A stretch of DNA of 64,000 nt from Polaribacter sp. NJDZ03. Its GTDB lineage: Bacteria; Bacteroidota; Bacteroidia; Flavobacteriales; Flavobacteriaceae. Shown here one piece after another: positions 968 through 14,965 of this stretch (position 1 is the stretch's first letter; each line of letters begins with the position of its first letter). The translations under genes and the position numbers were made by a program. A model generated the notes under the pieces. That model did no database searches. It was not told the origin of the DNA and was given only the letters and a program-made list of their open reading frames with translations. Location: the NCBI RefSeq assembly GCF_019263805.1, contig NZ_CP079195.1, positions 3,149,001 to 3,213,000 on the forward strand, written 5' to 3'.

Positions 968-3900
968 TTATTCAATAACTACTTTCTTACTTATAGTGCC
1001 TTTATTGGTATTCATTTTTACAATATAAACACCTGCTGTTATTTGTTTTTTGATGTCTAATTGGTAAGTACTTTTTTGTTCCTTAATACTCCAAGTAGTT
1101 ACTTTTTTACCAAGTATGTCAAATAAATCAACATTATTAATATTTACTTCTTGGTTTTTAGAGATTACAATGTTGTTATTATCATTGTCTGCATAAATAC
1201 TCGTTTTACCAGTAAGTATATCTTCTTCAACACCTAATAAAGTCCCTTCTGCTGCATTAAAAGCTAAAACAAATCTGTCTGTGTAGATACCTGTTTTTAA
1301 TTGATACGTTGCACTAACATCATTTATTTTCTGTGTTTTACCTGTTAATTTGTCTTTGATGTAAACATCTTGATTGATGTTGTTTATTTCATCAATACCA
1401 ATTGTAATAATACTGTTTTCATTTACAATAACTTCTAATGGTACTTCTAATGCGCTAGAAATTTCTTGTACTCCAGAAATTACATAGCTATTTGCATCAT
1501 TTGGAAACTTCCAATAGAAATCTGTAGTATTAACATCAAACATTTCTGAGTCATATCCTTTTTCATAACCAAAAGAATTTGCTTGATTAAAAGAAATCCC
1601 TATCTGACGATGTAAATTACTTCCTTGATCATTAGAATAACTCATTCCTAATTTTAATATAGGTAGCTCATTATTAGCTGATTTTACAGTTTTTTTCTGA
1701 CTATTTTTTAAGAATATAGAGGTACCAGCTCCTTCTGTTTTATATTCTCTTTGACTATTGTTAAATTTAATTTGTCCGTTACCAATACCTTCTACAAAGA
1801 ATCCCTGTCCTATTGCAACATAAGGTTCTGGATCTTTGTATAAATCATCATATTCACTACCACCAGAGTTAGCAACACAAGATATAAGGCCATCATCATC
1901 TTGAAAGATTAATTTGTTTATAGCAAGCGTACCTAAGTCGCTTGTTGCAGTTATAGTAATATCACTACCTGCTGGTATACATAAATTTATGGTTATATCT
2001 TTATAAAATAGACCGGTAGAAGGAAAAGTAAAATCGCCTTTATCTACATTATCAATTTTTATATTAAACTTCTTAGTTAATAGTGATGCGTAGTTTATTT
2101 TTAAAGTTTCTACTCCTCTAGGAATGTTAGAGAATTTGATATAATCTCTACTGTTTAAATTAACTACAGATCCTAATAGATTTATAATAGATTCTAAAAA
2201 ACCGGTAGTTTCAGTTACATCTTCAGCTAGAAGCGTGTAGTTTACAGGTCCTGTCTCTCCCGTTTTTACTTTAGTTGCCATACTTACGTTCTGAGCAGCA
2301 TAACCACCAATATAACCACCAAAGTTATGACCTGCAGTTCCTGAAGCTTCCGTTTCCGCAACATGTTGCCAAAAATAAAGTGTTGATATTAAAGTGTTAT
2401 TGTCATCTAAAAATTTTCTAGCATTTAAAGCAGAAGGGAAGGGGTTTCCTATTAAATAAGATTGTCCAGCAGTTATCTGCTTAGTCTTAAACTCACCATC
2501 ATTAGGGGTACCTACAAATGTGTAGTTTTGTTTTCTTCCAGGTCCTTTAAAAGTATAACCATCACCTCTATCTATAAGTCCTTTTTTATATTTATGTAAC
2601 CAATTTGCTCTTCCGTTACTAGCAGGAGCATAGGTATATACCCAGTAATCTGCTAAGGAAATACCAGATCCAGTAAATGAACCATCATATCCATTAGCAA
2701 ATGTAATTTCTTTAGGTGTATTTGTTGTTGTACCGTCTCTAAGAACAGATTCTAAAGAATAGGTGTCTGTATTTAAAGTTGTAACTGGTGAACTCATGTA
2801 GTTATAACGATATAAACTAGGCACTTCTGAGTTTTGATCTACAAATAATTGTCCATCACCAGATACTTCACTACCATCTGTGTGTGTTTGTATCAATTGA
2901 GCAGAAGAACCAGATAAACGAATTTCTCCGTTTAACTCTATATCATTAGTAACGACTAATAATTGATCTGTTACTCTTAATTCATTATTCTTAACAACCT
3001 TTAATTTTCTTGCACTTAATCTATTGTTTTCATGGTTATAAAACTCATCAACTATCACATAACGAGATCTGTCTGGAAAACCATTATCCCAAGTACCACC
3101 TGCATTTGTTGTAGTTTCTTTAATTCTATGTAAACCTAACAATGTATTTGCTTGTTTATTAGAACTTGTTATTTCTGAGATTAATGGATCTTCAGGATGT
3201 CTCTTCGTGTTTCCATTACCTGCTCCATAACCAGATTGGTATGTGTTTATGGCATCATCTATAAATACAACCCATTCACTAGAAACATAATCTTTATTAG
3301 GTGCCGTTACTTCATCTATTCTAACAAATGAAGTATTGTCTGTAATATTAGAAACGATATCATATCTATTAGCCCATGCAAAATTTCCTGTTGCAGATGA
3401 AAGTGTTATAATATCATTTGCTCCAACAATTGCAGTTAATGCGCTGTTTTTTATGATTGTTGCATCACCTAAATTTGTTATGTCTGATGTTGTTTTGTTT
3501 TTAAACAAGATAGATTTACCTACTTTTAACTCAGAATCTACCACAACTTCTTCAGTTGGTGTTGCTATTGCTAGTGCATCAACCTGAGCTATTGTTTTAT
3601 TTTGATACAATTGAACTTTAATTGTGTTAGCAGGAATGTCTTCTGAACCGATATTTGTTATTTCAATCCATCTTTCTTCTCCAAACTGATAAATTTGCGT
3701 AATCATAACGTCTGAAGCTTCTGGTATATCTCTATAATCTAGGTTGCCAGTAGTTGGGTTGTTTGGATCGAAATTACCATCTGTATCTCCAAAAGCGTTT
3801 TCTAAAATAGCTAATGTTGTTACTATGTTGTTAGGTGCTGTTCCTCCATCATTTACTGTAAATCCGTTATTTATAATGTCTAAATTATCATCAAAAGCAT

Positions 3901-6900
3901 CATTTAAACCATCACCATCTGTATCTAATAATTTACCACTTGCATCCTTTGCAAGCGCATTTTGTAAATCTCCGTTTTCGGCAATATCAAGTACACCGTC
4001 ATTATCTGAATCTGCATCTAAGTAATCTGGAGTGTCAGTTCCATCCGTATTTTCTGGAATAATGCCAAAACCTGTATAGCCACCAATAGTTTCATAAGTA
4101 TCATCTACACCATTATTATTACTGTCTGCAATGTTGTTTCCAACTCCAGAAGGTTTTTTATAACCACTTGTAGATTGTCCTTCAATATTATCAGGAATAC
4201 CATCGTCATCGGCATCAATGTCTATAAAGTTTGGTTTACCATCTGCATCGGCATCTCCTTTTACATAAGAGTTTGGTTTACCATCTATTGTTGTATTTGT
4301 AGCATCTGTATCTGGTCCGGTAATTATTAAAGGGTTTGCAGCACTTATAGAACCATCTACAGCATCGTCAAAACCATCATTATCACTATCTACTGTAGTA
4401 TCTTGTTTACCATCTCTGTTGGTATCTTTACCACCAGCTTCTATAACATCTGGAATACCATCGTTGTCTGAATCTAGGTCTAAATGATTAGGGATACCAT
4501 CCTTATCAGAATCTCCTGTAATATAAGAGTCTGGTTTACCATCGTTATTATTATCTGCTCCAGTAACTACTAAGGCATTGTTGCTATTATTGATCGTACC
4601 AACTTTTCCGTCTACAGCATCATCAAAACCATCGTTATCAGTATCGTTAATTAATGTACCATTACTGTTGATGTTGTCTACTAAACCATTTCCGTCTTCA
4701 TCTACTCCGCCAGCTTCTATTAAATCTGGAATTCCATCATTATCGGCATCTAAGTCTAACATGTCTAATGTACCATCTTGGTCTGTATCTCCATTAGGGT
4801 AACTATTAGGTTTACCATTGTTGTTTGTATCTGCTCCGGTAACTATTAATGCTTTTGCACTATTATTAGTTCCGTTAACATTTCCATCTACAGCATCATC
4901 AAAACCATCGTTATCAATGTCATTTTTTAGCGTACCATCAGCATTAATAGTATCTACTAAACCATTTCCGTCTTCATCTACTCCGCCAGCTTCTACTAAA
5001 TCTGGAATACCATCATTGTCTGAATCTAAATCTAAATAATTAGGGATACCATCGTTATCTGTATCACCAGTTATGTAAGCGTCTGGTTTACCATCATTGT
5101 TAGCGTCTGTACTTCCTGTAAGTATTAAAGCTTTGTTTTTGTTGATAGTTCCGTTAACATCACCATCTACATAATCATTAAAACCGTCACCATCAGTATC
5201 TAAGAAATTATCTGCAATACCATCTCCATTAGCATCTGTACCACCTGCTTCTACAACATCTGGAACACCATCATTGTCTGAATCTAAATCTTTTGCATCT
5301 GGAATACCATCACCATCTGTATCTGGGTTTGTAATGTTATTTCCGTTCGTTGCACCGGTTACTTGAGAATCATAACGATCATCTAAACCATCATTATCTT
5401 TATCGTTTTTAAGTGTACCGTTACTGTTAATATCGTCTACTTTTCCGTTTCCGTCAGTATCAATACCACCCGCTTCTACAATATCTGCAACACCATCGTT
5501 GTCTGAGTCTAAATCTAGAAAATCTAATACACCATCTTTGTCTGTATCTCCATTAGGATAAGAATTTGGTTTACCATCATTATCTGTATCTGCTCCGGTA
5601 ACTATTAAAGCTTTATTTGGGTTGTTACTTCCATTAACGCTTCCGTCTACAGCATCGTCAAAACCATCTTCGTCAGCATCATTTTTAAGAGAACCGTCTG
5701 TATTTATATTGTCTATTTTTCCATCTCCATTGGCATCAATACCACCAGCTTCTGTAATATCTGTAATACCATCGTTATCTGAATCTAAGTCTATGTGGTT
5801 TGGTATACCGTCTCCATCTGCATCTCCTGTTGTATAAGAATCTGGTTTACCATCATTGTTCGTGTCACTTCCTGTAACAACTAATGCATTGTCTTTGTTA
5901 TTTGGTGTACCAAGTTGACCAACATCACCATCTACAAGATCATCAAAACCATCATTATCTACATCATTTTTTAGCGTACCATCAGCATTAAGGTTGTCTA
6001 CTTTACCATCTCCATTAATGTCTGTACCACCTGCTTCTACGATATCTGGGATACCATCGTTGTCTGAGTCTAAATCTTGTGTATCTGGAATACCATCTCC
6101 GTCTGTATCTGGATTTGTAATATTTTTTCCATTCGTTCCACCTGTAACATTAGCGTCATAACGATCATCTAAACCGTCTTTATCTATATCGTTTTTAAGA
6201 GTACCATCAGTATTAAGATCGTCTACTTTTCCGTTTCCATCTGTGTCAATACCACCAGCTTCTACGATATCTGGAATACCATCATTATCTGAATCTAAAT
6301 CGAAATGATTAGGAATACCATCTCCGTCGTTATCATATACATCTGGTATGCCGTCATTGTTAGAATCTGCGTAGTTTGTAGTACTTCCATCTCCATCGTT
6401 ACCATCATCATGGTTGTCTAAATAGTTAGGGATACCATCTCCATCTTCATCCCCTTCAGCTAGGTTTCCTCCATTTTCTAGAGTATCAGGTATGCCATCG
6501 TTATCATCATCTAAATCGATGCTGTCTGGAATACCATCATTATCATTATCCTTAATATCTCTATAATCTAGATTACCTGTATTTGGGTTATTAGGGTCGA
6601 AGTCTTTATCTTCATCACCAAAAGATTTTTTTAAAGTTAACAAGCTGGTTACTTTTTTATCTGGACTTAAACCATCATTTACAGTAAAACCAATAGTAGG
6701 GTTGTCTGTATTATCATCGAAAGCATCATCTAAACCGTCACCATCTGTGTCTTTTTTTGTAAGAATATTTTGAAGGTCTCCATTTTCTGCAATATCAAGA
6801 ATACCATCATTGTCTGAATCTGCATCTAAATAATCGGGTATTTTATCACCATCGGTATCTACAGGTATAAAAACTTTACCGCCTACTTCGTAAAGGTCAT

Positions 6901-9478
6901 CTATACCATTTTTATTAGTGTCTTTAATTCCTGTACCAATACCACTTGGTGCAATATAGCCAGCTGTTGTTTGTACTTCTATATTATCTGGAATACCATC
7001 ATTATCGGCATCTATATCTTTATAATCTGGTATACCATCTCCGTCTGTTGACGTAGGTGTGTTACCTGTATTTGCTGATGCAGGAATTCCGTTAGTTGAT
7101 GGTGTAGTACCTACAACTCCATCTGCCATTCCATCACGATTTTCATCTTTACCACCAGATTCTATTACATCTGGAATACCATCATTATCTGAATCTAAAT
7201 CTAAACGATTAGGAATACCATCTCCATCTGAATCTGTATTACATAATTGTCTTACTATAATGTCATCAATAGCTAAATCGTTTCCAAATATTGCTTTTGT
7301 ATTGTTTCTGATTACAACAGTAATGTCGCTGTTATTTAATGTAGTTAAAGGAGCATTTGTACCGTAATATTTCCATGCATCTTTACTGCCTGCTTTTTCT
7401 CTAACAATGTTCCCTGTATTTACAGAAGGACCTAAAAGTTTTCCATTTTGCCAAAGTTCTATTTGTATGTTTGGTAAAACTCTAAGAGGATTATCATTAA
7501 CGTTATTGTCAACATCTAAATTTAATACCCAAAAAGATACGTCTAAAAGAGCACCTGCGGTAACACCTTTTATTGTTTTTTGATAAATGACATCTGGTGT
7601 TGTACCTGCATTTACCATTAACATGTTATCTGCTGTTGGTGTTAAGCTACCACTTGTATGGTCTCCTAAAGTTTGCCATTGTCTATCTGCCCAACTTGCG
7701 GAGTTAGGGATGTTATTAAATACTGCGTAAAGATCATCTTGTAGATCACGACTGATATCATTACTACGTGGGTTTTTTAATTCTAAATATCTATAATCTG
7801 TAGTTGCCCCTCCAGATAAACGAGTACTAGTTGTAGCATTACCTACACCAAAATCTTCATTAAGTAAAGGAGTACCATAGATATCACAAATATCTTCATC
7901 AACATCTAAAATACCATCGTTGTCATCATCTAAATCACAAATATCGCTAATACCATCTCCGTCTGTATCTAAGTTACCAGAAGATTTTGCGTCACAACGG
8001 TTACCTACAGTGATGTCTTCATCATTAGAATCACCAAATTCATAATTTGTAATTACGGTATCATTTGGGGTTGTAACAGTAGCTGTTGCACTATTTTGGT
8101 ATACTGCCAAAGGTTGGTTCATAGGTACATTTACATCAAAAATAATAGTAACACTTCCTTTACCATCAATATTAAATTTCCCCCAATTAAGCGTAGTATC
8201 TCCAACTTGTGGTTTTGTTGTAGAAGTTTGTTGAGCATCTTTTAATATAATATTAGCGCCAGATGCATAGGTAAAACCTGCTGGTAGAATATCTTTAGCT
8301 GTTACGCCTTTTAAATCTACATTGGTAGCATTTGTTAAAGTTATTTGGTAAGTACCATTTTCACCGATATTAACTTTAGGTGTGGTAGTTTTTTTAGTTA
8401 CAACTAAACCTCCTGTTGGTATTTTTAATACAATTAAATCTAACATAATAAGATCTTGCCATGACCCTGCGTATAGATTTAAGTTGGTTGAACCTGCTGT
8501 AAAATTACTGTTTACAACATCTATATCCCAAGCTCCATAAGGGCTACCTGTATAAGCATTATTACCTGGAGCTGGGTCTGAAACCCCTCCTGAATTTGCA
8601 AAATCTATAGGGAAGTCTGCAAAGGCATTGTCTGAAACTTTAATACTTTCTCCGTCTATAGCTGCATCTCCTTGTAAAGAAGCTACAGATATACTACCTG
8701 CTACATCACCAGAATATACTTTGTAACCTGTTACAGGAACAGTAATATCTCCATATACAAAACCTTTTAAACCATCATATACATATACTTGATTGATACC
8801 TGGTTCAGCTGTTCTAGATTTATATACTACAAGCATTTGCCATGCTCTTACGTTTTCTTGAGAAAATGCACAAGCAGCATTAAAGTTATACAATACATTG
8901 CTATTTGTAGATGTTGAGATAACATCTGCAGTATACGTTCCAGAAGGGTTGGGTTGTGCTAATACTTCTGCAGTAATATCTGCTAAATAACCTTCGTATT
9001 GAGGACTTAAGGTATTAAACGGTACAGTTTCCTTATAACTTTTATCTCGTGTTATGGTTTTTGTGATTCCGTTAGGAAATTTAATAGGAATAGTTGTAGA
9101 TAAAGGGTTATAGGATGTTAAACCAGTTCTACCATGTTTTACAAGAGCAAACCATTGTACGTATACTGCTTGTATTACTGCATCTGCAGGTATAGATAAA
9201 TTAGCACTAGTAGCTCTTCCATTATTTTTTATACAAGTGTAAGTTGTTCCCGTTGTTTCGTATGAAACCTCACTATTACCAATTTGTTTGTAGGTAAGAT
9301 TGGCTCCAGAAAACTTCTTGTAAAAATTAATATTATCATTGGTGTCGGGTCCTTGCGCACTAATAGAAAAGGAAGTGGCAAATAACAATACGGTAAGTAT
9401 TGTTAAGCTTTTTAAGCTGTTGTTAAATAGGTGTTGAATTTCCCCAAATTCACATACCTGAAAAGTGTTTTTTTTCAT
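968..9478 (-). CDS. Giant T9SS-secreted adhesin-like protein with TSP3 repeat rod (2836 aa)
   Basis: Probably a cell-surface or released calcium-binding protein for adhesion, gliding or biofilm; the role is inferred. Residues 1-42 form a long signal peptide ending SISAQ. A DUF11-like domain covers about 356-480, and a first TSP3 pair about 493-529. A lectin- or jelly-roll-like insert follows to about 744. Then comes an Asp/Asn/Gly rod of TSP3 repeats (D-x-D-x-D-G-I-x-D) to about 1914, organised in roughly 75-85 residue super-repeats each carrying EAGG; I count eight EAGG plus one ESGG. Next is a lamin-tail-like domain (about 1920-2080), then a region shared with two paralogs at 57275 and 63119. 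The last about 75 residues are a T9SS type A sorting domain (LFDILGKKV, then [10 protein letters not shown], ending in KKVVIE). The stop is TAA at 968-970. The plus-strand frames inside are shadows of the Asp-rich repeats. Confidence 0.9.
3735..7250 (-). repeat. TSP3-encoding DNA repeat tract (about eight super-repeats)
   Basis: About 3.5 kb of imperfect DNA repeats encode the calcium-binding rod. Recurrent words on the plus strand are ACCATCATTATCTGAATCTA and variants of it. Super-repeats of roughly 230-250 bp alternate two types: one with a GLDDRYD element and one with an FDDAVDG element. Such a tract is expected to change copy number by slippage or recombination. Confidence 0.85.
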
Positions 9479-10177: not shown

Positions 10178-10208
10178 TTTGTTTGTTTCAATTTTATCTT
10201 TAGATTTG
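10178..10208 (+). promoter_or_regulatory. Promoter of the aromatic amino acid operon
   Basis: TTTG at 10178-10181, 19 bp, then TAGATTTG at 10201-10208. This matches the Bacteroidetes housekeeping consensus TTTG-N19-TAnnTTTG. The predicted transcript start, near 10215, lies about 18 nt before the leader peptide ATG and about 165 nt before pheA. Confidence 0.65.
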
Positions 10209-10232
10209 TCAGTATAAACAAAGAGAATACAA

Positions 10233-10313
10233 ATGTTAAATAACTATTTTACTCGTTTCTATTTTTACTTTTACTTTTTTAGTAAGAGAGGAGACTTTGT
10301 ATCATGTTTTTAA
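10233..10313 (+). CDS. Phe/Tyr-rich attenuation leader peptide (26 aa)
   Basis: A short open frame, ATG 10233 to TAA 10311-10313, encodes 26 residues of which 8 are Phe and 4 are Tyr. They include an uninterrupted FYFYFYFF run at residues 9-16 (10257-10280). It sits between a consensus promoter and a terminator just before pheA, in the position and with the composition of pheL-type leader peptides. The aromatic codons mix TTC/TTT and TAC/TAT, so the run is not simply a T tract. The region before the ATG reads AAAGAGAATACAA, a weak AG-rich ribosome site. The peptide itself probably has no function; its translation is the sensor. I have found no other explanation for it. Confidence 0.7.
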   Translation: MLNNYFTRFYFYFYFFSKRGDFVSCF

Positions 10314-10364
10314 GTAACATTCATATCATATAAAGTCTCGAATTTCATTCGAGGCTTTTTTTTT
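10291..10364 (+). promoter_or_regulatory. Transcription attenuator: antiterminator/terminator pair
   Basis: Terminator: arms GTCTCGAAT (10335-10343) and ATTCGAGGC (10347-10355), 9 bp with one G-U pair and loop TTC, followed by nine T (10356-10364). Antiterminator: GAGACTTTGTAT (10291-10302) pairs over 12 bp (one G-U) with ATATAAAGTCTC (10328-10339), consuming 10335-10339 of the terminator arm, so the two are mutually exclusive. A third pairing, ATACAAA (10227-10233) with TTTGTAT (10296-10302), could block the antiterminator when the leader is untranslated. A ribosome stalled in the Phe/Tyr run leaves 10291 onward largely free; one reaching the stop at 10311 covers it. That predicts read-through when charged tRNA-Phe or tRNA-Tyr is scarce. 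Confidence 0.7.
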
Positions 10365-10381
10365 GACATTATTTGTAATAG

Positions 10382-11206
10382 ATGAATAAAATTATTGCCA
10401 TACAGGGAGCAGAAGGCTCAAATCATCATAAAGTTGCACGCAACTTTTATGGAACCACTATACAATTAAAAGAATGTATGTCTTTTGATGAGTTGGTAGC
10501 TAGTTTAATAGACAATACCGCAGATTTGGGTATTATGGCTTTAGAGAATACCATTGCGGGTTCTATAATTCCTAATTATGCTTTAATTGATAATAATAAT
10601 TTACACATAATAGATGAAGAATATTTAAATATTCATCATCACTTAATGGCTCTAAAAGGTCAGAAAATAGCAGATATTAAAGAAGTTTGGTCTCATCCAA
10701 TGGCATTGTTACAATGTAAGGAGTTTTTTAAAAAATATCCACATATAAAACTAGTGGAAGATGTTGATACTGCTGAGGTTGCAAAAAGAATTTCGAAAGA
10801 AAACTTAGTTGGTATTGCAGCAATTGCACCTAAAATTGCAGCAGAAATATTTAGTTTAGAAATCCTTGAAGATAAACTTCAAACCATAAAAGATAATTCT
10901 ACACGTTTTGTAATTGTACAAACTGCTAAACCAGAAGTTAATAAAGAAGTAAATAAAGCTTCTTTAAAATTTCAGTTGAATCATAAAAGAGGAAGTTTGG
11001 CTGCAATTTTAAATGTGTTGAGTGATTGTAAAATGAACTTAACCAAAATACAGTCTTTACCAGTGATAGAAACTCCGTGGAAATATTCATTTTTTGTAGA
11101 TGTTACTTTTGAAGAATATAGTGAGTATGAAAAAGCAAAAGCGATTATAGAAATAATGGCAGAAGAATTCAAAATTTTAGGAGTTTATAAAAACGGTAGA
11201 AAATAG
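10382..11206 (+). CDS. pheA: Prephenate dehydratase
   Basis: Converts prephenate to phenylpyruvate in phenylalanine synthesis; cytoplasmic. The 274 residues match the stand-alone monofunctional form. The N-terminal catalytic domain begins IIAIQGAEGSNHH, carries the substrate loop ALENTIAGSI near residue 55, and has the catalytic T-R-F motif as NSTRFVIV near residue 178. An ACT domain follows from about 195 (SLKFQLNHKRGSLAAILNVL), where phenylalanine probably binds for feedback inhibition. There is no chorismate mutase domain; that activity is supplied by the last gene of the operon. It starts 17 nt after the attenuator T run. The next gene starts 7 bp after its stop, so it heads a polycistronic operon. 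Confidence 0.93.
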   Translation: MNKIIAIQGAEGSNHHKVARNFYGTTIQLKECMSFDELVASLIDNTADLGIMALENTIAGSIIPNYALIDNNNLHIIDEEYLNIHHHLMALKGQKIADIKEVWSHPMALLQCKEFFKKYPHIKLVEDVDTAEVAKRISKENLVGIAAIAPKIAAEIFSLEILEDKLQTIKDNSTRFVIVQTAKPEVNKEVNKASLKFQLNHKRGSLAAILNVLSDCKMNLTKIQSLPVIETPWKYSFFVDVTFEEYSEYEKAKAIIEIMAEEFKILGVYKNGRK

Positions 11207-11213
11207 TATAGTT

Positions 11214-12356
11214 ATGATACAACCAGCTAAAAGATTAGATACAGTGCAAGAATACTATTTCTCTAAAAAGTTAAGAGAAGTTAGAGGTTTAGTTGCAGCC
11301 GGAAAACCAATTATCAATATGGGAATTGGGTCTCCAGATTTGCAGCCACCAACAGAAGTTTTAGAAGCAATTCAGGGTAGTTTAAGTGATGTAAGTGCGC
11401 ATAAATATCAATCGTATCAGGGCTTACCAGAATTAAGAAATGCAATAGCTACTTTTTATAAAAACAAATTTTCTGTAGATTCTAATCCAGAAAATGAGAT
11501 TTTACCATTAATGGGCAGTAAAGAAGGAATTATGCATATTTCTATGGCTTTTTTAAACGAAGGCGATAAAGTATTAATTCCTAATCCTGGGTATCCAACA
11601 TATACATCTGTTACGAAGTTAGTAGGAGCAGAGCCTTTGTTTTATAATTTAAGTGATAAAACTAATTGGCAACCAGATTTTACAGCATTAGAAGCACAAG
11701 ATTTGAGTGATGTAAAAATTATGTGGGTCAATTATCCGCACATGCCAACAGGAACAAATGCAACGTTAGAAACGTTTGAAAAACTAGTGGCTTTTGGTAA
11801 AAAACATCATATTTTAATTATAAATGACAATCCGTATAGCTTTATTTTAAACGATAAGCCTATTAGTATTTTACAAGTAGAAGGCGCAAAAGACATTGCT
11901 TTAGAATTAAATTCTTTAAGTAAGACTTTTAATATGGCAGGTTGGCGCGTTGGTATGGTTTTAGGAAACGCAACATTCATCAACGAAATATTAAAAGTAA
12001 AATCTAATATGGATTCTGGTATGTTTTACGGAATTCAAAAAGGAGCCATAGAAGCATTACAATTATCAGATGATTGGTTTTTAGCACAAAATAAAATATA
12101 CGAAGAACGTAGAAATTTAATTTGGCAATTGGCAGATAAATTGGATGCTGTTTATGATAAAAACTCTACAGGGTTATTTGTTTGGGCAAAAATACCAGAA
12201 GGAAAAAAATCTGAAGAAGTTACAGATGGAGTTTTATATGATAACGATATTTTTATTACACCAGGAACCATTTTTGGTTCTCAAGGAGAAGGATACATCC
12301 GTTTTTCATTATGTGTAACAACAGATATTATAAAAGAAGCAATTAGCAGGTTTTAA
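11214..12356 (+). CDS. Class I PLP-dependent aminotransferase of the aromatic operon
   Basis: A 380-residue fold-type I aminotransferase. The PLP-binding lysine is Lys237 in NSLSKTFNMAGWRVG. Other family marks are LNEGDKVLIPNPGYPTY and the conserved Asn/Asp/Tyr set (NYPHMPTG and INDNPYS). Placement between pheA and tyrA indicates it transaminates phenylpyruvate and 4-hydroxyphenylpyruvate, or possibly prephenate, using glutamate or aspartate as partner. Sequence alone cannot fix the substrate; the family also contains LL-diaminopimelate and alanine aminotransferases. The start is an ATG 7 bp after pheA. A repeat cluster lies between it and tyrA. Confidence 0.87.
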   Translation: MIQPAKRLDTVQEYYFSKKLREVRGLVAAGKPIINMGIGSPDLQPPTEVLEAIQGSLSDVSAHKYQSYQGLPELRNAIATFYKNKFSVDSNPENEILPLMGSKEGIMHISMAFLNEGDKVLIPNPGYPTYTSVTKLVGAEPLFYNLSDKTNWQPDFTALEAQDLSDVKIMWVNYPHMPTGTNATLETFEKLVAFGKKHHILIINDNPYSFILNDKPISILQVEGAKDIALELNSLSKTFNMAGWRVGMVLGNATFINEILKVKSNMDSGMFYGIQKGAIEALQLSDDWFLAQNKIYEERRNLIWQLADKLDAVYDKNSTGLFVWAKIPEGKKSEEVTDGVLYDNDIFITPGTIFGSQGEGYIRFSLCVTTDIIKEAISRF

Positions 12357-12383: not shown

Positions 12384-12450
12384 AACGTGGTTTCAACCCA
12401 TTGAACGTGGTTTCAACCCATTAATCGTGGTTAAAATCTATTGAAAAAAG
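12371..12450 (+). repeat. Tandem 20-bp repeat between aminotransferase and tyrA
   Basis: Units of TTTCAACCCATTGAACGTGG: two identical copies (12371-12390, 12391-12410), a third with changes (12411-12430) and a degraded fourth (12431-12450). The fourth copy creates the TTG at 12441 that looks like an upstream start for tyrA. The other gene gaps of this operon are 7 and 21 bp, so this is an insertion or expansion. Confidence 0.85.
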
Positions 12451-12455
12451 AAAAA

Positions 12456-13307
12456 ATGAAAAATATATACATGATTGGTATTGGATTAATTGGCGGTAGT
12501 TTTGCTATCGACATTAAAAAAAACAATCCAGATGTTGTAATTCACGGAATTAGTAGAAAAGATGAAACCTTAAATAAGGCTTTAGAATTAAACCTAATAG
12601 ACAAGAAAGCAACTTTAGACGATATCGAAAATGCAGACTTGGTAATTGTATCTATTCCGGTAGATGCAACCGTAAAATTATTACCTACTATTTTAGATAA
12701 AATATCTGATGATGGTTTGGTAATTGATGCCGGATCTACAAAAGAAGCAATTTGTAAAGTAGTTGAACATCATCCAAAAAGAAGAAATTTTTTAGCATGT
12801 CATCCAATTGCAGGAACAGAAAATTCTGGACCAACAGCAGCTATATCCGGCTTGTATGTTGGAAAAACCAATATTATCTGCGAAGTAGAAAAGACAACTT
12901 TTAAGCTTCAAGAAAAAGCATTAAAGCTTTTTATGGATATTGGAATGCGTATTCGTTACATGGACCCCGTTTCTCATGACAAGCATATTGCGTATGTTTC
13001 GCACTTGTCTCACATAAGTTCATTTATGTTAGGTAAAACGGTTATTGATAAAGCTAAAAATGAACGCGATATTTTTGATATGGCAGGTTCAGGATTTGCC
13101 TCCACAGTTCGTTTGGCAAAAAGTAGTCCAGCAATGTGGACACCAATTTTTAAACAAAATAAAGAAAACGTAATAGAAACGTTAGAAGCATACATTAACA
13201 ATTTACAACAGTTTAAAGAGTTGATGCAAAAAGATGATTTCTCTGAGATTTTTAACGAAATGGAGAATACAAATCACATAAAACAAATTTTAAACGGCAT
13301 AAAATAA
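12456..13307 (+). CDS. tyrA: Prephenate dehydrogenase
   Basis: Oxidatively decarboxylates prephenate to 4-hydroxyphenylpyruvate with NAD(P)+ in tyrosine synthesis. The Rossmann motif is GIGLIGGSFA at residues 8-17, followed by the family marks DAGSTK, HPIAGTE and the helical C-terminal domain (DPVSHDKHIAYVSHLSH, with the catalytic-type His). I chose ATG 12456 (start MKNIYMIGIG, 283 residues). An in-frame TTG at 12441 lies inside the degraded last unit of the tandem repeat and would only add KKEK-type residues. There is no ACT domain, so feedback control may rest elsewhere. It is the third gene of the operon, 21 bp before the next start. Confidence 0.92.
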   Translation: MKNIYMIGIGLIGGSFAIDIKKNNPDVVIHGISRKDETLNKALELNLIDKKATLDDIENADLVIVSIPVDATVKLLPTILDKISDDGLVIDAGSTKEAICKVVEHHPKRRNFLACHPIAGTENSGPTAAISGLYVGKTNIICEVEKTTFKLQEKALKLFMDIGMRIRYMDPVSHDKHIAYVSHLSHISSFMLGKTVIDKAKNERDIFDMAGSGFASTVRLAKSSPAMWTPIFKQNKENVIETLEAYINNLQQFKELMQKDDFSEIFNEMENTNHIKQILNGIK

Positions 13308-13328: not shown

Positions 13329-14411
13329 ATGGAGAATACTAAAGAATTAAGAACATGGTTGGACGATATGAAATTAAATCATCCACTAGTAATAGCAGGG
13401 CCTTGTAGTGCAGAAACCGAAGAACAGGTTTTAAAAATTGCACACGAACTAAAAGATTCTGATGTAAGCTATTTTAGAGCAGGAATATGGAAACCAAGAA
13501 CAAGACCAGGAATGTTTGAAGGTGTTGGTGAAATTGGTTTACACTGGTTAAAGAAAGTAAAAGAAGAAACAGGTATGAAAACCTGTACAGAAGTTGCAAA
13601 TGCAGCGCATGTAAAGTTAGCTTTAGAGCACGATGTAGATTTATTATGGATTGGTGCACGTTCTACAGTATCACCATTTATTATGCAAGAAATTGCAGAT
13701 GCTTTGGCAGGTACAGATAAAATTGTATTGGTAAAAAATCCAGTAAATCCAGATTTAGCTTTATGGTTAGGTGGTATCGAAAGATTATATACTGCAGGAA
13801 TCAAAAACTTAGGAGCAATCCATAGAGGGTTTTCAACATACGAAAAATCTAAATATAGAAATACTCCAGAATGGCAATTAGCTATTGAGTTTCAGAATAA
13901 ATTTCCAGACTTACCATTAATCAACGATCCATCTCATATTACAGGTAAGAGAGACATGATTTTTGATGTTTGCCAAACTGCATTAGATTTAAACTTTGAT
14001 GGTTTAATGATAGAAACTCACTTTGACCCAGAAAATGCTTGGTCAGATGCTGCACAACAAGTTACTCCTGCTGCTTTAAAGCAAATAATGGTAGACTTAA
14101 AAGTGAAGAAACAAACTGAAACTGCTGTAAGTTACAGAGAGCCTTTAGAGAACTTAAGAGCTCAAATTAACGTGGTAGACGATCAATTAATAGATTTATT
14201 AGGTAAAAGAATGCAAGTTGCCGATAAAATTGGTCAATTAAAGAAAGATCAAAACGTAGCCGTTTTACAATCACGTCGTTGGAACGAGATTTTAGGAAAC
14301 ATGGTTTTAGAAGGTAGTAGTAAAGGTTTAAGTGAAGAATTTGTTTTAAAAATGTTTAAAGCAATTCACCAAGAATCTATCGTACATCAAGAAAAAATTA
14401 TCAACGGATAA
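13329..14411 (+). CDS. Bifunctional DAHP synthase / chorismate mutase (AroQ type)
   Basis: Catalyses both the first step of the shikimate pathway (PEP + erythrose-4-phosphate to DAHP) and the branch-point step chorismate to prephenate. Residues 1 to about 260 are the KDO8P-synthase-like (type I beta) DAHP synthase, with AGPCSAE near residue 23, RAGIWKPRTRP near 51 and NDPSHITG near 198. Residues about 268-360 are an AroQ helical chorismate mutase (LRAQINVVDDQLIDLLGKRM, then KIGQLKK). The mutase is at the C-terminus, the reverse of the Bacillus order. Prephenate made here feeds both pheA and tyrA of the same transcript, so the operon covers Phe and Tyr synthesis from chorismate. A terminator follows. 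Confidence 0.92.
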   Translation: MENTKELRTWLDDMKLNHPLVIAGPCSAETEEQVLKIAHELKDSDVSYFRAGIWKPRTRPGMFEGVGEIGLHWLKKVKEETGMKTCTEVANAAHVKLALEHDVDLLWIGARSTVSPFIMQEIADALAGTDKIVLVKNPVNPDLALWLGGIERLYTAGIKNLGAIHRGFSTYEKSKYRNTPEWQLAIEFQNKFPDLPLINDPSHITGKRDMIFDVCQTALDLNFDGLMIETHFDPENAWSDAAQQVTPAALKQIMVDLKVKKQTETAVSYREPLENLRAQINVVDDQLIDLLGKRMQVADKIGQLKKDQNVAVLQSRRWNEILGNMVLEGSSKGLSEEFVLKMFKAIHQESIVHQEKIING

Positions 14412-14432
14412 TTTTTAAGCATATATTTATTT

Positions 14433-14471
14433 AAATACCTTCAAGTTTTATAATTTGAAGGTATTTTTTTT
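14433..14471 (+). terminator. Terminator of the aromatic operon
   Basis: Stem AAATACCTTCAA / TTGAAGGTATTT with a loop of about 10 nt, followed by a run of T. It lies 22 bp after the DAHP synthase stop. Confidence 0.85.
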
Positions 14472-14638
14472 GGGCGTTACCAAGCAAAAAAGCTTGGTCA
14501 GACTAGAATTTATCTTGAGCGTAGTTGAAAGGCATTCACTTTTTTTGTCAAAAAACATAAAAGAGCTCAAATAATTGCTCAATCCTTAACGCTTGGTGAA
14601 AACTTAAAAAGGATGTTTTGTTAGACTACCAAAAGTAT

Positions 14639-14682
14639 ATTAAGACCTCACAGGTTTTTAAAACCTGTGAGGTCTTATTTTA
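14639..14682. repeat. Long palindromic REP-like element
   Basis: Arms AAGACCTCACAGGTTTT and AAAACCTGTGAGGTCTT form a stem of about 17 bp with almost no loop. It lies in a gene-free stretch and is not placed like a terminator. Similar palindromes are common between genes in Flavobacteriia (general knowledge). Confidence 0.7.
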
Positions 14683-14766
14683 ATATGCAATAAATTACAA
14701 CAATTGTTAGTTTTTAAGTGTGGGTAAGTACTTTAACTACAGTAATATAGCGATAATATTCGCCCA

Positions 14767-14842
14767 GCTAGTGCTCGTTTGCAACGAGTACCGAAATTAA
14801 TGTTATACACGTTATAAACGAGCGTGAGCAATATTGCTGACC
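14767..14842. repeat. Imperfect palindromic intergenic element
   Basis: TGCTCGTTT near the left end is complementary to AAACGAGC near the right end, with further inner symmetry (TTTGCAACGAG; GTTATACACGTTATAAACGAG). It looks like a short non-autonomous repeat. The rest of 14412-14965 holds only further repeat-like pieces (for example a CTTGAGCGTAGTTGAAAGG word near 14514 and AAAAGAGCTCAAA near 14562) and no gene. Confidence 0.5.
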
Positions 14843-14965
14843 AGACAGGTCTTTTTAACACAAATTAAACCATAGGAGTTGTTAGAAAAGACAAAAACTG
14901 GTGAATTCGTGGCAATTTCAATCCATTTTTTCATAAATCAATATTAATTCAGCATCTTTGTATTA

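Follow-up and report, generated by a model that had tools for sequence, protein, structure and literature searches.

Does the short Phe/Tyr-rich reading frame in front of the pheA operon of Polaribacter sp. NJDZ03 belong to a leader-peptide attenuator, and which amino acids would such a switch sense? An earlier note had proposed a leader-peptide attenuator at this site in the 64,000-nucleotide stretch of DNA analysed here (the window), and comparison with related genomes strongly supports that core claim. We conclude with high confidence that the region represents a ribosome-mediated transcription attenuator of the trpL/pheL type, predicted to control the pheA–aminotransferase–tyrA–DAHP synthase/chorismate mutase operon.

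Architecture of the leader region and the operon

Direct reading of the sequence confirmed the promoter motifs, the 26-residue leader with its 12 aromatic residues and the FYFYFYFF run, all of which had been noted before (Table 1). The run comprises leader residues 9–16 (10257–10280), and the gaps found within it in three aligned rows (6, 6 and 3 nt in L024, L041 and L052) are all in frame. The promoter motif TAnnTTTG is retained in 70 of 81 aligned rows (the window and relatives), the −33 TTTG being less regular. Codon 6, three codons before the run, is aromatic in 77 of the 81 aligned rows (Trp 44, Phe 20, Tyr 13), a count in which the diverged Algibacter-type rows are not codon-aligned with certainty. 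Position −3 of the leader ATG is C in the window, whereas 62 of the 78 distinct rows have A in the corresponding column, 10230. The leader RNA (10211–10375) folds better than 200 of 200 shuffles (−32.2 versus a mean of −21.2, z −3.65).

Table 1. Features of the pheA leader region and operon, in window coordinates
Feature	Position	Strand	Description and basis
Predicted Bacteroidota-type promoter	10178..10208	+	TTTG (−33) and TAGATTTG (−7) at 10201–10208; TTTG-N19-TAGATTTG read in the sequence
Leader peptide ORF	10233..10313	+	26 aa, MLNNYFTRFYFYFYFFSKRGDFVSCF, 12 aromatic
Codon 6, aromatic outlier ahead of the run	10248..10250	+	Phe in the window; alignment of 81 rows
Segment 1, outer part	10255..10260	+	Pairs with 10290–10295; 417/468 cells paired
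Segment 1:2 inner hairpin	10268..10288	+	10268–10275 with 10281–10288; 599/614 cells paired
Segment 2, antiterminator 5' strand	10291..10302	+	Pairs with segment 3; co-varies across genera
Segment 3, antiterminator 3' strand	10328..10339	+	Overlaps the terminator 5' arm; pairing, cross-locus comparison
Intrinsic terminator (predicted)	10332..10364	+	Stem 10332–10358, 12 pairs, loop 3; nine T at 10356–10364
pheA, prephenate dehydratase	10382..11206	+	NCBIfam prephenate dehydratase models, below cut-offs; PF00800 match in own genome
Aminotransferase of the pheA operon	11214..12356	+	Best NCBIfam match LL-diaminopimelate aminotransferase, below cut-off
tyrA, prephenate dehydrogenase	12441..13307	+	NCBIfam match above cut-off; TTG start as listed
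Fused DAHP synthase/chorismate mutase	13329..14411	+	NCBIfam matches below cut-off; PF00793 match above cut-off

The antiterminator, previously described as a 12-bp pairing that excludes the terminator through a common strand, was recovered as such: it joins 10291–10302 to 10328–10339 in 12 pairs, one of them G-U. The 9-bp terminator proposed alongside it is present with its nine T residues, and proved to be the core of the 12-pair stem. Since the antiterminator and the terminator both use 10332–10339, they are mutually exclusive.

Profile searches with PF00793 and a class II model detected a single DAHP synthase in the genome of the strain, namely the fusion gene of this operon; the second DAHP_synth_1 match is a KDO8P synthase, and the class II profile had no match in this genome. 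Likewise, 78 of 80 genomes of the family carry at most two DAHP_synth_1 matches, and none of these 80 has a class II match. The 80 genomes were drawn from 85, leaving out G161, G171, G172, G183 and G228, and these five include four genomes without a leader call. Among the matches listed, the operon-type DAHP synthase lies within 6 kb of pheA in 71 of 73 rows. The view that the downstream genes make exactly Phe and Tyr is thus too narrow, because the operon encodes the sole detected DAHP synthase of the genome and also feeds Trp. The tyrA gene possibly starts at an ATG a few codons inside the listed TTG. The intergenic region that follows the operon (14412–14965) is long and shows several inverted repeats by eye, of which one near 14470, followed by a T tract, may be the operon terminator. 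On the minus strand, divergent from the operon, 968–9478 encodes a 2836-residue protein that carries a sorting domain for type IX secretion and numerous Asp-rich repeats.

Distribution of aromatic leaders upstream of pheA

Upstream regions of pheA were collected from 199 loci: the window, 80 relatives, 83 genomes of the family, 32 loci belonging to other families in the class, and three nearer kin. By its PheA, the window itself is Polaribacter-like. In 184 of the 199, a short ORF was called in which five or more residues within a span of eight are aromatic, compared with 149 of 995 dinucleotide shuffles; with six or more required, the counts were 177 of 199 and 25 of 995. As about 15% of shuffles pass the threshold of five, the seven real loci that score exactly five are the least sure. 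The leader was called in the window and in all 80 relatives (the best 80 of 248; mostly Polaribacter and Tenacibaculum, with some Algibacter, Flaviramulus and Flavivirga); in every one of these 80, the short ORF ahead of pheA is rich in Phe and Tyr and holds 4 to 8 of them in an uninterrupted row. It was also called in 78 of 83 family genomes with pheA, each of another genus, taken from a sample of 100 genomes of the family, and in all three nearer kin (one locus of the same genus and two of the same family). Beyond the family, 22 of the 32 loci examined carried a leader; these represent 32 of the 34 pheA matches from other families in a 149-genome sample of the class (G031 and G072 were left out, and G021 entered only the comparison outside the class).

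The 15 loci without a call were L085, L086, L087, L088, L090, L094, L097, L103, L110, L139, L143, L147, L172, L179 and L199; in L143 the contig starts within the leader, whose run can be made out by eye. A further 30 loci, the best 30 of 172 genomes with a match, served as an outside comparison: no leader with more than four aromatic residues in eight was found in the 29 from classes other than Bacteroidia, nor in the one from another family of the same order. A similar putative aromatic-leader switch precedes pheA in most of the relatives examined.

Conservation of the terminator and antiterminator

Across 78 distinct leaders (the window and relatives), the terminator pairs are kept in 852 of 883 cells and the antiterminator pairs in 821 of 916. 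A terminator follows the leader in 177 of the 184 called leaders, those without one by the rule used being L091, L100, L106, L107, L174, L194 and L195. Segment 2 could be scored in 176 loci, one of the 177 terminator loci having no scorable segment 2. In 154 of these 176, no more than one in 50 shuffled versions of the sequence downstream of the run matched segment 2 in pairing with the terminator 5' arm, and in 172 of 176 a stem of five or more pairs is common to segments 2, 3 and 4. The three segments vary jointly between groups, as GAGAC/GTCTC/GAGAC, GGGAC/GTCCC/GGGAC, CAGGA/TCCTG/CAGGA, CCGGG/CCCGG/CCGGG and others. Comparison of pheA upstream regions, of the kind that the earlier note had suggested as a check, yielded both the aromatic leader, in 184 of 199 loci, and joint changes in segments 2, 3 and 4.

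The same structures were assessed in an alignment blind to pairing, built from 81 leaders (the window, L057 and 79 same-family loci from the genome samples). The terminator was paired in 739 of 808 cells, against 444 of 808 in the best slid control, and the first six antiterminator pairs in 354 of 477, against 254 of 477. Changes on both sides were seen at 6 of the 10 pairs of the terminator, where slid controls gave no more than 5, and at 5 of the first 6 pairs of the antiterminator (42 cells), a figure also reached by the control slid by −2 (5 pairs, 36 cells). Beyond its core the antiterminator is weak across genera, with 519 of 834 cells paired over all 12 pairs. When segment 2 was swapped between 98 loci, the mean was −13.8 for a locus's own segment and −10.0 for swapped ones; the own segment beat all 60 swaps in 12 of the 98 loci and was within the best 5% in 28, swapping being poorly discriminating because the GAGAC core is common to most loci.

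The TGA that ends the leader frame overlaps the beginning of segment 2 (..TGAGAC..) in L032, L043, L050, L074 and further Tenacibaculum-type loci, where a terminating ribosome would therefore sit on the antiterminator. The window differs from these loci in that its leader ORF reads through segment 2.

Folding within the leader frame and the proposed switch

The conserved 1:2 hairpin lies within the leader ORF. Its inner part is built from the Phe/Tyr codons and the Ser/Asn-Lys-Arg codons, and the pair 10274–10282 is TA in 55 of 77 and CG in 22 of 77, a compensatory change in which a Ser-to-Asn replacement in the peptide accompanies a synonymous change of the Tyr codon from TAC to TAT. The outer stem (10255–10260 with 10290–10295) takes up the start of segment 2, and its end pair, 10260–10290, is paired in just 42 of 78. 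The order of the synonymous Phe/Tyr codons favours folding of the 1:2 type: their permutation weakens folding, with a mean z of −0.79 over all sets and 147 of 172 values below zero. For the window with L083–L199 the mean z was −0.89 (78 of 92 negative; downstream-shuffled control −0.11, 50 of 88), and for the scan set of 80 relatives −0.66 (68 of 79 negative; control 0.03, 32 of 78). No probability is attached to these z values because the rows are related. A third pairing, 10227–10233 with 10296–10302, had been proposed in addition; it exists in the window sequence and is not conserved (317 of 511 cells in 78 distinct leaders), and it was rejected as a part of the switch.

The geometry of the leader was examined with a codon scan that assumes the ribosome to shield 12 nt, counted from the start of the A-site codon. 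In the window, the antiterminator is free to form for ribosome positions at codons 1–17, one codon beyond the end of the run at codon 16, and is blocked at codons 18–27. Over 97 loci (the window and 96 others), its probability exceeds 0.5 at the last codon of the run in 96 and at the stop codon in 2; the first of these figures is partly a matter of construction, as segment 2 had been looked for downstream of the run. Segment 2 begins 7 to 16 nt downstream of the run in the middle 90% of the 176 scored loci. Both the window scan and the 97 loci agree with the earlier suggestion that a stall in the run frees the antiterminator and a ribosome at the stop codon hides it.

From these parts, with their observed conservation, exclusivity and geometry, we infer transcription start, leader translation, termination and amino-acid response as follows. 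RNA polymerase would start near 10213, and a ribosome would begin the leader at 10233 with no Shine-Dalgarno site. When charged Phe- or Tyr-tRNA is scarce, the ribosome would stall in codons 5–16 with its front edge no further than about 10290, opening the 1:2 hairpin and leaving segment 2 (10291–10302) free to capture segment 3 as it emerges; the terminator would then not form in time, and the operon would be transcribed. When the aromatic tRNAs are charged, the ribosome would run on and, between about codon 18 and the stop, cover segment 2, allowing the terminator (10332–10364) to form and transcription to end before pheA. At equilibrium, the terminator is favoured in all computed states of the full window RNA (P at least 0.70), including those with a ribosome stalled at codons 9–16 (P 0.70–0.90), which implies that antitermination must be kinetic. 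An untranslated, terminating state, as formerly envisaged or as would result if the 1:2 hairpin held segment 2, is uncertain and finds no support at equilibrium: in naked window RNA the antiterminator can form before the 3' arm of the terminator is available.

Alternative explanations and the amino acids sensed

A terminator/antiterminator switch upstream of a biosynthetic operon could also be a small-molecule riboswitch or a T-box-like element that senses Phe/Tyr or uncharged tRNA directly, the ORF being incidental. An Rfam scan of the region (E up to 5, and gathering cut-off) gave nothing at the cut-off, just Yfr10 far below it (E 1.4); in the same scan neither the T-box model nor the covariance model of the Phe leader family had a match. 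Conservation falls on the leader ORF and the switch arms, every called leader contains both amino acids, and the gaps in the run keep the frame, all of which makes direct sensing very improbable. It is scarcely credible that a plain upstream terminator or transcript end lies next to a Phe/Tyr run that arose by chance from T-rich DNA. TTT and TAT codons are indeed common in this AT-rich genome, and shuffles do reach five in eight at an appreciable rate; however, they seldom reach six, and the in-frame gaps and the joint change of three segments already contradict chance. Leader translation might instead act on the translation of pheA, through coupling or re-initiation, and in many relatives pheA follows closely on the terminator (median 18 nt). 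Against this, a terminator with a T tract accompanies nearly all called leaders, and in the window 68 nt separate the leader stop from pheA downstream, a distance too great for simple coupling; we regard such translational control as quite improbable.

The attenuator might respond to Phe alone, with Tyr and Trp codons tolerated or tuning speed. Mixed Phe and Tyr codons would indeed not prove that both amino acids are sensed, because the C. glutamicum AroR leader contains Phe-Tyr-Phe and yet, in the part of the review that deals with it (PMC11802643), Tyr availability is described as having no effect on the operon it leads. In the leaders studied here, however, Tyr alternates with Phe throughout the run, both occur in 184 of 184 called leaders, codon 6 is most commonly Trp, and the operon makes Tyr too and holds the sole detected DAHP synthase, so that a response to Phe alone, while deserving serious attention, appears unlikely. 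Trp is present in 108 of the 184 called leaders (longest reading of each ORF). In leaders from the sampled genomes, it occurs within the run or up to eight codons ahead of it in 59 of 103, with 60 Trp codons there against 12.6 expected from base composition. Given this enrichment and the sole detected DAHP synthase in the operon, control of the operon by all three aromatic amino acids is plausible. Going further, a Trp codon just before or inside the run in over half of the leaders, in front of an operon with what may be the cell's only DAHP synthase, leads us to suggest, tentatively and with some doubt, that one leader peptide could integrate Phe, Tyr and Trp supply and so control entry into the aromatic pathway across the class Bacteroidia. 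If true, integration in the window would cover two amino acids, its Trp position being held by Phe. Whether one mixed Phe/Tyr/Trp leader can sense three tRNAs is thereby posed as a testable question.

Other likely leaders in the same genome

Upstream of hisG (near genome position 413149, locus L230) lies a His-rich short ORF, MTFIQNHHHHFYNCSQAI from an internal ATG and longer from a TTG, with a strong terminator (−16.5 kcal/mol) that lies 45 nt ahead of the hisG start adopted; this region is likely a His leader attenuator. A trpE-like gene (below the model cut-off; near genome position 3578295, locus L232) is preceded by the short ORF MKNNTINTGWWNSLIS, with Trp-Trp, and a terminator, likely a Trp leader attenuator. 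No convincing leader was seen upstream of ilvD in this genome, the start of ilvD not being resolved.

Comparison with known attenuators

Amino-acid attenuation is understood chiefly from work on Proteobacteria and Actinobacteria, and Vitreschak and co-workers reportedly made a comparative prediction of classic attenuators in Bacteroidetes/Chlorobi in 2004. To our knowledge, Bacteroidia mRNAs lack Shine-Dalgarno sites; a widespread and easily recognised Bacteroidia leader would offer a ready test of how leader initiation and coupling to the polymerase proceed without them. The window leader differs from E. coli pheL in having no Shine-Dalgarno site, a different sequence and no Rfam match, and pheL is not known to have regulatory Tyr or Trp.

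With the pheA attenuator of E. coli (pheL) the window leader shares a leader peptide carrying the product amino acid, the same first gene and, as predicted for the window, control by charged tRNA (PMC11802643). The passage of that review on pheL names Phe-charged tRNA alone, whereas leaders of the window type contain Phe and Tyr and often Trp. The aroR-aroF attenuator of C. glutamicum likewise places a leader with Phe and Tyr codons ahead of an operon for DAHP synthase; in the account given there (PMC11802643), aroR has one Phe-Tyr-Phe and responds to Phe, not Tyr, whereas the window has a longer mixed run and a four-gene operon. Leader-like sORFs have been noted in Bacteroides in the portion of text available (PMC7366714), and initiation without a Shine-Dalgarno sequence has been described in F. 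johnsoniae in a paper in whose available text the word 'attenuation' is absent (PMC6847099).

Closest to the present case, the available portion of a study of F. psychrophilum reports clues to leader-peptide attenuation before amino-acid operons and, in a separate context, lists pheA as one of the structured 5' elements that other genera of Flavobacteriaceae conserve (PMC9723704). The novelty in Bacteroidetes that the earlier note had seen is reduced to that extent, a conserved 5' element before pheA being already in print. As here, that element belongs to the same gene in the same family and has no Rfam match, and it is very probably the same element as that of the window. The account in that portion (PMC9723704) comes without the anatomy of the pheA element and does not state pheA to be a leader-peptide case; among the matches listed in a search of titles and abstract openings of the open-access literature, with subscription papers mostly outside, no description of the anatomy of a pheA leader was found. 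The kind of switch is thus already known, and what the present analysis adds is its anatomy, its breadth, the occurrence of Phe and Tyr in all 184 called leaders and Trp in 108, and its place before an operon with the sole detected DAHP synthase.
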